This document shows positions 15,931-23,419 of a stretch of DNA of 23,925 nucleotides, one piece after another. Position 1 is the first letter of the stretch. Every line of letters begins with the position of its first letter. The notes beneath the pieces are model-generated. The model saw only the letters and a list, made by a program, of their open reading frames with translations, did no database searches and was not told where the DNA came from. Source of the DNA: a virus; the IMG/VR virus record IMGVR_UViG_3300034106_003716, positions 1 to 23,925 of that record; one strand, written 5' to 3'. The translations under genes were made by a program, and so were the position numbers.

Positions 15931-16118
15931 ATTAACTTTTTTTTAAATTGACTAAATCCTTTTTGAAAACTTATGTAGGCAAATCCTTTTTGCCCTTTGA
16001 AATTTAACCACTTTCCGTATTCCATGTCTAACATTTGGACAAATTCTCCAAACTCGTTTAACTTCACAACTTCCACAATAGTTTTTTGGTTTAAAAGTGA
16101 TAATGATTTCTTATCCAT
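15927..16118 (-). CDS. Small unknown protein after large terminase
   Basis: This 63-residue basic protein is not recognised. It contains a beta-like LNEFGEFVQMLDMEYGKW followed by KGFAYISFQKGFSQFKKK, a small alpha/beta mix. Its start overlaps the end of the large terminase gene by 8 nt and its stop overlaps the lipoprotein's ATG by 4 nt (ATGA), so all three are coupled in translation. No signal peptide or metal site is visible. Confidence 0.6.
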   Translation of the reverse strand: MDKKSLSLLNQKTIVEVVKLNEFGEFVQMLDMEYGKWLNFKGQKGFAYISFQKGFSQFKKKLI

Positions 16119-17565
16119 ACAACAAATTTTTATATTTTATCTTTAAGATGTTAGCGGCACTTGCCAAACTATCAATAGCATCTTTTTTATGCGTATTACT
16201 ACTTTCCCTATCGTAGCTTGTAATATGGTTTATAAATCTTGCATATTCAACATCCTCTTTATACCTTTCATCAAATACAAAGTGATTCTTTATAAATTCA
16301 GAGTTTGACAATATCCTAGCTTCTTTTGGAATTGTTACCGTAAATGGCTTAACAGTCGTTGTATTGCTTAAATCCCTCTTTAAAAGCATAAAAGCAGCTG
16401 CACCTATTCCATTAACCTCCAAAAAAACTTCTTCAATAAAATGTTCCCTAGTTTTATCAATCATTCTATCATTTACTATCTCTATTCCCTCTTTACTATG
16501 AACAACACCCTTAACAAAGCATAGTAATTTATTTTCAATTATTGCAACGTGCATAAATGGTATCGAGTAATAATCCCCACCTACATTAGCAGGGTCGCCA
16601 ACTGCAAACTTAAATACAATACTACTCGACGGTATATTACATAAATTCCAAAACTTTAAACTTTGTAATGGTAATAGCTTACCTTTTAAATCCTGTGGGT
16701 TTTGTTGATATTGCGTTTCAAATACATTTTCATCTATTTGTCTAATGTTATTCAATTCTTCTAATGTTTGCTTAAATTCCCATAAAGCGTGTTCATTTCC
16801 AAAATCATCAGTTGTTATGCAAGGAATATCTATAAATTCCCATTTATCTTCTTCTGTTTCTTTTAAATAACCAATTAAGTCGTTACTATGCAACCTTTGA
16901 CCAATTACAATAATCGGAGTATTTCTACTGTTTGTCCTTGATCTAATCGTATTCTCAAACCTTTCGTTTACTCTTTGTCTTTTCAAGTCACTCAAAGCAT
17001 CATCAGGTTTCAAAGCATCGTCTATTATAATTGCGCCAGCAAATCTTTTAGTATCATTTTGATTAGGCAAAGCATCATTTAAATCCCTATCAACCTCTCC
17101 AGCACCAAAACCTGTAATTTGTCCACCAGTAGCCGTAGCATAAACTCCACCGCCTCTCGTAGTAGCCCACTTACTCTTACTTGCGCTACTCTTACTTAAT
17201 TCTACATAAGGAAATACTTGTCTATAATCTTCACTATCTACAAAATCCCTAACGCTTTCACTATTATCCTCAGCCAAACTACCAGAATAACTCAAGTGTA
17301 TAAACTTTGCACTCGGATTATGCGCTAAACCTAATGCTATAAAGTTTTTTACCGCTAATTCAGTCTTGCCGTATCTCGGCGCTATACTAATACAAACCCT
17401 CGTTAAATCCCCACGGATTATCCTATCCAACGCCTTGCATATAGTTTCATGATGACTATTAACCACAAAACCACGATTAAACCTCTTTTGAAAGAAGTAC
17501 TTTGTAAACAATAAACTACTACCCATCAATTTAGCTTGTAGTATCTGTGTAGGTGTTAAATTCAT
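16111..17565 (-). CDS. terL: Terminase large subunit (packaging ATPase-nuclease)
   Basis: The protein has 484 residues. The ATPase half shows a Walker A-like IAPRYGKTELAV (residues 61-72), a Walker B AIIIDDAL (178-185) with the acidic pair, and a coupling motif VIGQRLHSNDLIGYL (220-234). The C-terminal nuclease half shows the RNase H-like acidic residues: Asp324 in AVGDPANVGGDYYS, Glu383 in FLEVNGIGAAAF and the Asp pair in HKKDAIDSLASA (462 and 465). It powers DNA into the prohead and cuts the concatemer. It overlaps the upstream winged-helix gene by 4 nt and the small gene downstream by 8 nt. Length and motif order are standard. Confidence 0.96.
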   Translation of the reverse strand: MNLTPTQILQAKLMGSSLLFTKYFFQKRFNRGFVVNSHHETICKALDRIIRGDLTRVCISIAPRYGKTELAVKNFIALGLAHNPSAKFIHLSYSGSLAEDNSESVRDFVDSEDYRQVFPYVELSKSSASKSKWATTRGGGVYATATGGQITGFGAGEVDRDLNDALPNQNDTKRFAGAIIIDDALKPDDALSDLKRQRVNERFENTIRSRTNSRNTPIIVIGQRLHSNDLIGYLKETEEDKWEFIDIPCITTDDFGNEHALWEFKQTLEELNNIRQIDENVFETQYQQNPQDLKGKLLPLQSLKFWNLCNIPSSSIVFKFAVGDPANVGGDYYSIPFMHVAIIENKLLCFVKGVVHSKEGIEIVNDRMIDKTREHFIEEVFLEVNGIGAAAFMLLKRDLSNTTTVKPFTVTIPKEARILSNSEFIKNHFVFDERYKEDVEYARFINHITSYDRESSNTHKKDAIDSLASAANILKIKYKNLLYG

Positions 17566-18083
17566 AAATTAGCGTAATATGTTCTATCAAATAAAGTAAC
17601 AACATCTTTTTTTATCCCCCTACCATTAAAACTCAAATATGGATTAAAAACCCAATAATTGTGATGTACCTCAAACCTATCGTAAACCTCAAACTTTCCT
17701 ATAACTCCTAGCTTAAATAACTTATCTACAATAGCAAAAACCTTACGCCTATCAATATTTAATTCAGTAGATAAGTAAACCATAGTGCTTTCAGGTTTTA
17801 TTGGCTCTAATGAATTTGTATATGCTTTTGCACGTTGCCCTAATTGTTGAGCAACACTATACTCTAAATCATTTGTTTGAGTTCTTAATAACCCCCAAGC
17901 ATTAGTGAAAAATCTTTGATAAGGTTGGTTACTCCTAAAATATTCCATTGTCTTATCTCGCATTTCTTTTTTAACACCAACACCCACAAACTCCCTTATC
18001 TCACCAGTGTCTAAATTTATTACAGCAGGAATTTCATTATGATTATATCTTATTATACTCTCGCAATCCTTTCTTAAACTCAT
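17562..18083 (-). CDS. RepL-like winged-helix DNA-binding protein in terminase module
   Basis: The protein has 173 residues. Residues 1-60 are a mixed region (NLDTGEIREFVGVGVKKEMR), 60-95 helical. Residues about 98-150 look like a winged helix: MVYLSTELNIDRRKVFAIVD (helix-turn-helix), KLFKLGVIGKFEVY, then a wing ending YWVFNPYLSFNGRG. The WVFNPYLSFNG turn is characteristic of the plasmid replication RepL and related families. It lies between the two terminase subunit genes and overlaps terL by 4 nt (ATGA). A promoter element lies 25-32 bp upstream and four direct repeats just beyond, so autoregulation is plausible. Replication initiator, late regulator or packaging cofactor are all possible. 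Confidence 0.72.
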   Translation of the reverse strand: MSLRKDCESIIRYNHNEIPAVINLDTGEIREFVGVGVKKEMRDKTMEYFRSNQPYQRFFTNAWGLLRTQTNDLEYSVAQQLGQRAKAYTNSLEPIKPESTMVYLSTELNIDRRKVFAIVDKLFKLGVIGKFEVYDRFEVHHNYWVFNPYLSFNGRGIKKDVVTLFDRTYYANL

Positions 18084-18107: not shown

Positions 18108-18115
18108 CAAATATA
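18108..18115 (-). promoter_or_regulatory. Promoter element for winged-helix/terL operon
   Basis: The minus strand reads TATATTTG (18115-18108), an exact Bacteroidota -7 box, 25 nt ahead of the ATG at 18083. That spacing gives a leader of roughly 20 nt. No good -33 TTG is found at the usual distance; the repeats 1 and 2 at 18122-18140 lie there instead, so a regulator may occupy this site or replace the -33 contact. Confidence 0.6.
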
Positions 18116-18121
18116 GACAAT

Positions 18122-18171
18122 TTTGCGCATATTTGTACATTTATACACAAACTTTGTACATTTTTGCACAT
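18122..18171. repeat. Four helically phased TTTGYRCAT direct repeats
   Basis: Copies on the plus strand are TTTGCGCAT (18122-18130), TTTGTACAT (18132-18140), TTTGTACAT (18153-18161) and TTTGCACAT (18163-18171). Starts are spaced 10, 21 and 10 bp, and a poor fifth copy sits in the gap at 18142. Three of the four cores are TGCGCA or TGTACA, perfect 6-bp palindromes. One-turn spacing puts all copies on one DNA face. They sit next to the promoter of the RepL-like gene, fitting operators or replication iterons. Confidence 0.75.
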
Positions 18172-18390
18172 TCAACCCTTGTTAAGTACTGATTTTATTG
18201 ACCTCTTAACGACTATCTTCTTTATTTATTTATACATATCAACCAAAAATACTTTTTTACAGACAAAAAATTGCAAAAATATTTTTTTTAACTTCCATTC
18301 CTTAATCCAAAAAAAAAACATACAGCGAATTTTATAAAAAAATTATTTTACGAGTATTATACCCCTCCCCCTCTTTCAATCAAAAGTTTA

Positions 18391-18921
18391 TCATTCGTTG
18401 TCCTCCGTGTGCGTTATATCTATCGTGTTGAGTATCTCGTTAACTTGCTCCAAAGATAGTGGCTGCGTTGTGTTTACATTTGCTTCTATCGTTGCCTTAG
18501 TTCCGTACTTCTTGTTGTTCATTATAGATAACGACTTAAAGATCGTGTCATTTATTAGCCTTGCACGTTGTACCGCTACAGGGTTTGGTTTCCTGTTGCC
18601 ATTTTCATCGATATAGAAATCGTTTGAAGTGTCTCTTGCAACATCTAAGGCGCTGTTAAATAACACCACTTCGCGTTCTTCGCAGGCGCGCGCGTAATTT
18701 GTTTTGAGTGTTTCGTTTGTATACACTATCTGAGTGAACGTTGACTGGCTTATCGTTTGTAGTTTGTCTATTGCTTTTGTTACGCTGTTTCCTTTGCTCA
18801 CTTCATTTAGTATTTGCGTTATTGCTTGTATTTGTTGTGTCGTTGGGTTCGAGTAATCAATAGCTTTTGGGAGTGTATAAACTTTCCGTTTGGTGTACTT
18901 TCTTTTCTTAGGATTTTCCAT
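18391..18921 (-). CDS. terS: Terminase small subunit, Sf6-type
   Basis: The protein has 176 residues from ATG 18921-18919. A longer frame to 18963 exists, but a promoter-like TAAGTTTG at 18950-18943 lies inside it, so the inner start is preferred. The N-terminus is highly basic (MENPKKRKYTKRK). Residues about 38-80 form helices with an HTH look (NSVTKAIDKLQTISQSTF). Residues 80-142 match the Sf6-type small terminase pattern: YARACEEREVVLFNSALDVA, DENGNRKPNPVAVQRARL, then MNNKKYGTK. It recognises the packaging site and loads the large subunit. GC is somewhat higher here than in neighbours, including a GCGCGCGCG run near 18687. Confidence 0.85.
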   Translation of the reverse strand: MENPKKRKYTKRKVYTLPKAIDYSNPTTQQIQAITQILNEVSKGNSVTKAIDKLQTISQSTFTQIVYTNETLKTNYARACEEREVVLFNSALDVARDTSNDFYIDENGNRKPNPVAVQRARLINDTIFKSLSIMNNKKYGTKATIEANVNTTQPLSLEQVNEILNTIDITHTEDNE

Positions 18922-18942
18922 TGTTTTATATTTTAATATTGA

Positions 18943-18950
18943 CAAACTTA
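18943..18950 (-). promoter_or_regulatory. Promoter element for small terminase gene
   Basis: The minus strand reads TAAGTTTG (18950-18943), matching TAnnTTTG. It would start RNA near 18938, about 17 nt ahead of the chosen ATG at 18921. The region upstream is a T-run with no proper -33 TTG at the normal distance. It decides the start of the small terminase gene. Confidence 0.5.
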
Positions 18951-18963
18951 AAAAAAAAATCAA

Positions 18964-19112
18964 TAGGTTGTATATATGTAAGATAATACATATTTAATAC
19001 TTATAATATGTTAAATTTATGTTAAAATATATAATATATTAGCTAAATAGATAAATATAAACTACTTTTATATAGTGATACAAAAACAAATATTAATTTA
19101 ATCCTATTTATT
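18964..19112. promoter_or_regulatory. Divergent control region between late and early genes
   Basis: These bases, upstream of the late operon (minus) and the early block (plus), are extremely AT-rich with several TATA-like runs, for instance near 18972-19045. No gene fits. I see no perfect TAnnTTTG box in the plus direction, so the early promoter is not located; a phage or variant promoter is possible. Confidence 0.5.
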
Positions 19113-19334
19113 ATGAAACCTAAAATCGTGAAATTACATTTGTATTCAAAGAACAACATTAAAACAGGACGTTATTTATATAGCCCAGTTGCATTTTTTG
19201 ACGGCAAATATTTTTATTGTGATTCTTTGATAAAAACAAGCGTTACAAAAATTTCAGATATAAAAGACAATGAAATTGTCTTAACTCGTGAAATACCTCA
19301 ACAATTTTTAAAAGCAAACGGAATTAATATTTAA
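19113..19334 (+). CDS. Small unknown early protein
   Basis: This 73-residue basic protein is probably beta-rich (KIVKLHLYSKNNIKTGRYLY, then FFDGKYFYCDSL). It is not recognised. It is the first plus-strand gene of the early block, 191 bp from the divergent small terminase start. The intergenic DNA is extremely AT-rich and I found no perfect TAnnTTTG box for it. The gene is followed at 12 bp by a small membrane-protein gene. Confidence 0.6.
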   Translation: MKPKIVKLHLYSKNNIKTGRYLYSPVAFFDGKYFYCDSLIKTSVTKISDIKDNEIVLTREIPQQFLKANGINI

Positions 19335-23222: not shown

Positions 23223-23419
23223 TGGCAAAGCGAGGCAGAAAGCAAATCGACCCTAACGACAAACAAACGTTGGTTAGGGTTTACACCAAAAAGTCAACTA
23301 TTGACTTGATTGGTGAGGATAATATCCAAAAGAAATGTAGTGAATTTATTAATCAGCTTCAAGCGGATGCACTCACAAAGTGCGCAAATGAGGCATTAAA
23401 AAGTAGAACTAATGACTAG
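23222..23419 (+). CDS. Small basic protein, possibly DNA-binding
   Basis: The protein has 65 residues. It begins MAKRGRKQIDPNDKQTLVRV, with an AT-hook-like Arg-Gly-Arg followed by a strand (TLVRVYT) and two helices. A short strand plus two helices recalls ribbon-helix-helix regulators, but this is only a resemblance. It overlaps both neighbours (1 nt and 8 nt). Confidence 0.55.
   Translation: MAKRGRKQIDPNDKQTLVRVYTKKSTIDLIGEDNIQKKCSEFINQLQADALTKCANEALKSRTND

Follow-up and report, generated by a model that had tools for sequence, protein, structure and literature searches.

Five helically phased direct repeats overlap a putative promoter between the terminase genes of a tailed phage and may form a multi-site operator

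Five short direct repeats, spaced in phase with the DNA helix, overlap the putative promoter of a gene for a winged-helix DNA-binding protein (WH) in a tailed phage. We propose, with a probability of about one half, that this array is a multi-site operator that was acquired with the WH protein and is probably bound by it. This reading is favoured because of the promoter overlap, the phasing and the joint occurrence with a DNA-binding gene. The array is ordinary in kind; its placement is unusual. The window, i.e. the whole stretch of DNA analysed (23,925 nucleotides), is a 23.9-kb fragment in a virus record, and the phage genome is incomplete. The minus strand encodes the head and tail genes, read leftward in the order small terminase subunit (TerS), WH, large terminase subunit (TerL), portal and tape measure, and small genes run rightward starting at 19113. 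Within the TerS-TerL interval, the array sits shortly before the WH gene, in an intergenic region with 25% GC. The features of the locus are:

16111..17565, minus strand: TerL, downstream in the operon with WH (PHROG 38, 8.6e-81)
17562..18083, minus strand: WH gene, 173 aa, no curated family
18108..18115, minus strand: -7 box TATATTTG (TAnnTTTG), putative Bacteroidota sigmaA-type promoter for WH and TerL
18121..18170, plus strand: five phased direct 9-mers, consensus TTWTNYRCA, putative protein-binding sites, shuffle-tested
18121-18129, plus strand: array copy 1, TTTTGCGCA
18131-18139, plus strand: array copy 2, ATTTGTACA
18141-18149, plus strand: array copy 3, TTATACACA
18152-18160, plus strand: array copy 4, CTTTGTACA
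18162-18170, plus strand: array copy 5, TTTTGCACA
18325..18388, minus strand: element that directly follows the TerS stop, AAACTTTTGA..GGGGAGGGGTATAATACTCGTAAAATAATTTTTTT, shared with the TerS-TerL gap of sibling phages
18391..18963, minus strand: TerS, Sf6-like, upstream of the array (PF20901, 5.8e-16)

A preliminary description of this DNA had reported four TTTGYRCAT copies spaced by 10, 21 and 10 bp. Exact matches are indeed found on the plus strand at 18122, 18132, 18153 and 18163, with these steps, and the palindromy described for the cores TGTACA and TGCGCA is confirmed, but it does not extend to the fourth core, TGCACA. The repeats are real but number five, not four, the unit TTATACACA at 18141 having been missed. 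The starts of the five TTWTNYRCA units are spaced by 10, 10, 11 and 10 bp. A motif-free search recovered the same units on the minus strand (offsets 0, 10, 21, 31 and 41), and Tandem Repeats Finder reported 18117-18172 with a period of 10 and 5.5 copies. Scored as summed pairwise identity over five units at 10/11-bp steps, the array reaches 68, a value attained in 0 of 600 window shuffles (mean maximum 51.0 +/- 2.3, highest 60). Five copies of any 9-mer with at least three G/C within 60 bp were likewise found in none of 150 whole-window shuffles. Single TTTGYRCAT copies are not enriched in the window, with 46 matches at one mismatch or fewer vs 45 expected. The significance therefore lies in the clustering and phasing of the copies, not in the motif as such. 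Positions 2, 4, 8 and 9 are invariant, which looks like a conserved core, and the copies vary mainly at positions 1, 3, 5, 6 and 7.

The location at a promoter given in the preliminary description held up, as the -7 box TATATTTG matches an octamer that precedes TerL in related phages and the repeats overlap the promoter. TAnnTTTG is the -7 box of Flavobacterium sigmaA promoters (PMC9723704), and in the window it lies 25 nt from the WH ATG. Among 23 sibling loci, 21 carry the octamer, nearly always as TATATTTG, 32-118 nt before TerL; one of the other two has TACATTTG ~300 nt upstream and one has no octamer. Nothing comparable stands directly before TerL in the window, where the sole other match (TAGGTTTG at 17672) is within the WH gene. 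The WH gene overlaps the TerL start by 4 bp (ATGA), which places both genes in one operon. Since the WH gene lies between the octamer and TerL and is joined to TerL by this overlap, the predicted promoter should drive WH, TerL and genes beyond; we infer that it is active. The array overlaps this putative promoter and reaches upstream of it. Copy 1 falls in the spacer between -33 and -7, and the -33 position has no good TTG and is occupied by copy 2 (ATGTACAAA on the minus strand). A sigma-70 scan of the window was uninformative (12 found vs 10.2 expected).

This arrangement suggests how the operator would work. A DNA-binding protein, most likely WH, would bind at all five adjacent sites along the same face of the helix. 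Since the promoter contains copies 1 and 2, in the spacer and the -33 region, their occupancy should block RNA polymerase, and the upstream copies would contribute cooperativity. The operator would serve the single promoter of the WH gene and the downstream TerL and head genes, so that blocking would result in negative autoregulation and also determine when or how strongly the packaging genes are expressed. We infer both the binding of WH and its repressive effect. Autoregulatory operators have their sites over or beside the promoter of the regulator gene, and copies 1 and 2 here lie between -7 and -33 of the WH promoter. The tandem operators of phage and plasmid autoregulators similarly have short phased copies over and upstream of the promoter of a DNA-binding gene. 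The array differs from them in that its repeats are direct, not inverted, its promoter also feeds the terminase and head operon, and its binder is putative. The direct 10-bp repeats count against an operator, since dimeric winged-helix repressors usually have palindromic ones, and so does the exact match of two copies to the DnaA-box consensus. If the operator reading is true, a transferred regulator takes over a conserved late/packaging promoter and brings its own binding sites, which bears on late-gene control, a poorly known subject in this phage group. The locus would also allow binding to be assayed specifically for a winged-helix family that is uncharacterised and also occurs in crAss-like phages.

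The preliminary description had placed a winged-helix gene next to the repeats, and structure prediction agrees. In the AlphaFold2 model of WH (mean pLDDT 67.7, with the first 39 residues unreliable) the core is a winged helix, and Foldseek matched the model to MarR-, TFE-, PadR- and DnaD-type winged helices, all at E > 0.001. Its MarR-, TFE- and PadR-type neighbours, like the octamer before TerL in the siblings, count for an operator. Entries for a viral 'replisome organizer' and DnaD are also among the fold matches, and among viral models an uncharacterised protein and one from crAssphage matched best. Pfam gave only a sub-threshold winged-helix match for WH, and no match was found in PHROGs or NCBIfam. 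The same description had called the gene RepL-like, which is not established. The Pfam RepL model (PF05732), which does hit in control genomes, had no match at E<=10 in eight WH-carrying records. An hhalign comparison with eight real RepL proteins was collinear over 119 columns with an E of 0.0024, at a probability of only 12%, and two WH proteins were among the best non-RepL ORFs in hmmsearch with a RepL profile (E 0.09-0.18). WH shares with RepL a TGE motif near the N-terminus, the central winged helix and a C-terminal NP..G in collinear order, and differs in its extra N-terminal helices and in these weak profile scores. Kinship of WH with RepL is possible.

In the sibling contigs, whose TerL is 80-91% identical, the loci read over their full length have a TerS-TerL gap of ~350-430 bp. 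The loci examined contain neither a WH gene (by tblastn) nor the repeat array, and four larger sibling records have no such repeat cluster anywhere. No WH homolog was found elsewhere in the sibling records in a search run without a positive control. Conservation in related phages had been proposed as a check on the repeats, and they are absent from the siblings; as the siblings also lack the WH gene, this does not refute a link between WH and the operator. The joint absence instead points to a common arrival of gene and operator. In the simplest scenario, the WH gene entered the space between the TerL promoter and TerL, and the array was acquired with it or after it. The only other array-bearing contig, L015, is the same phage (99.95% identical; seven differences, all at 23266-23353). 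The array and WH thus occur together in one phage only, and their association is a single observation, which counts against an operator. A different 122-aa gene fills the TerS-TerL gap in one locus (L028 2376-2744), suggesting that this gap accepts insertions. Two siblings, G009 and G010, carry a gene for a DnaA domain IV protein (114 aa, PF08299 5e-19, RDHATV retained) at L133 7028-7372 and G010:29376-29576, respectively.

All WH homologs found (~60% identity) are on large contigs with a crAss-like look. One of these has a family A DNA polymerase and, at the TerL position, a protein 33.8% identical to the TerL of Cellulophaga phage phi14:2 (Crassvirales). Searches of named phages and of bacterial and archaeal genomes found no WH relative. 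The recognition-helix region of the crAss-like homologs is nearly identical to that of WH. They have no array upstream of the gene, which again counts against an operator, and three crAss-like records of 106-140 kb contain no TTTGYRCAT cluster. In the crAss-like records G001, G002 and G003 the homolog is in the block leading to TerL; it also lies ~1-4 kb from the cumulative GC-skew minimum. When viral contigs were searched with the four-copy pattern, the same phage was the sole match, whereas over 119 contigs matched a looser two-copy pattern. The ten among these, apart from this phage, with at least four approximate copies were rejected; a WH-like gene is missing next to their arrays, and several look like tRNA/integrase-end or simple tandem repeats.

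The sites could instead be DnaA boxes, five in tandem, bound by host DnaA or by a phage DnaA domain IV protein, and binding as on closely spaced weak oriC sites in the same orientation would control the promoter or local unwinding. Low-affinity DnaA arrays in oriC have the same orientation and 10-11 bp steps, and the relaxed DnaA box, TTWTNCACA, closely resembles the core TTWTNYRCA. The fit of the individual copies is uneven: copies 3 and 5 match TTWTNCACA exactly and copy 1 has one mismatch, but copies 2 and 4 have TA instead of the CA of the box and are two positions off. TTWTNCACA is also not enriched in the window (5 found vs 5.2 expected). The stand-alone Bac_DnaA_C proteins of G009 and G010 speak for this explanation, but neither of these siblings has a DnaA-box cluster anywhere, and no DnaA domain is known for the window phage, whose genome is incomplete. 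We consider DnaA binding unlikely, though it is the strongest competitor of the operator.

The preliminary description had offered two readings, an operator at the promoter and an iteron-type origin. Location supports the former; for the latter, the positive evidence consists of phasing and AT-richness. As an origin, the array would be bound by WH acting as a RepL-like initiator that opens the AT-rich DNA at 18200-18360, making a plasmid-like replicon inside the terminase module. Several helix-phased direct repeats are present here, and iterons are typically direct repeats with helical phasing (PMC5043065). RepL genes have been reported in crAss phages (PMC10136315, PMC11652158). The collinear alignment of the WH and RepL profiles, the 'replisome organizer' and DnaD fold matches and the position of the crAss-like homologs near the skew minimum all point the same way. 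The negative Pfam search and the low hhalign probability argue against a RepL-like initiator, and GC skew was rejected as origin evidence, since its minimum tracks the divergence of transcription even in siblings that lack WH. The array resembles the iteron origins of plasmids P1, F and RK2 and the lambda ori in having phased direct repeats beside a DNA-binding gene and AT-rich DNA. It differs from them in its promoter overlap, in an initiator homology that is not established and in its short units, 9-10 bp vs ~19-22 bp. Iterons are 19 bp in lambda and ~20 bp in plasmids. The array is also not kept in related replicons: the crAss-like WH carriers lack it, and complete-sized siblings replicate with neither array nor WH, having their own replication genes (ERF, DUF3127 and a replisome-organizer-like gene) in another part of the genome. 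An origin at this site is therefore quite improbable. Still more doubtful is a crAss-type initiator and iteron cassette captured between the terminase promoter and TerL, which would couple a plasmid-like replication start with packaging-gene expression.

The remaining explanations are weaker. Lack of conservation in relatives and the low GC content would fit a functionless local duplication, due to chance or short-lived, in intergenic DNA rich in AT, but the shuffle statistics, the overlap with a promoter shared with siblings and the core-like invariant positions make this very improbable. Least probable by our estimate is a cosB/pac-like element recognised by terminase with WH as an accessory, for which the repeats are suitably placed between TerS and TerL, adjoining a gap element common to siblings, and lambda offers a repeat-binding winged-helix protein, gpNu1, but the TerS here is Sf6-like and siblings with 80-91% identical TerL lack the repeats.

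The gap element at 18325-18388 is itself a candidate cos/pac or leader element. It is common to the TerS-TerL gap of many sibling loci in the form AAACTTTTGa..GGG.GTATaAATACaCCaAAATAATTTTTaCC (L016, L019, L022, L025, L026, L030, L031, L038, L040, L047, L052 and L054). A further 9-mer cluster, at 18975-19036, has a very high AT content, and its status as a family of direct repeats was not confirmed. The very AT-rich intergenic region at 18964-19112 separates the divergent gene blocks and holds a 25-nt imperfect inverted repeat (18971-18995 / 19025-19049, 76%).
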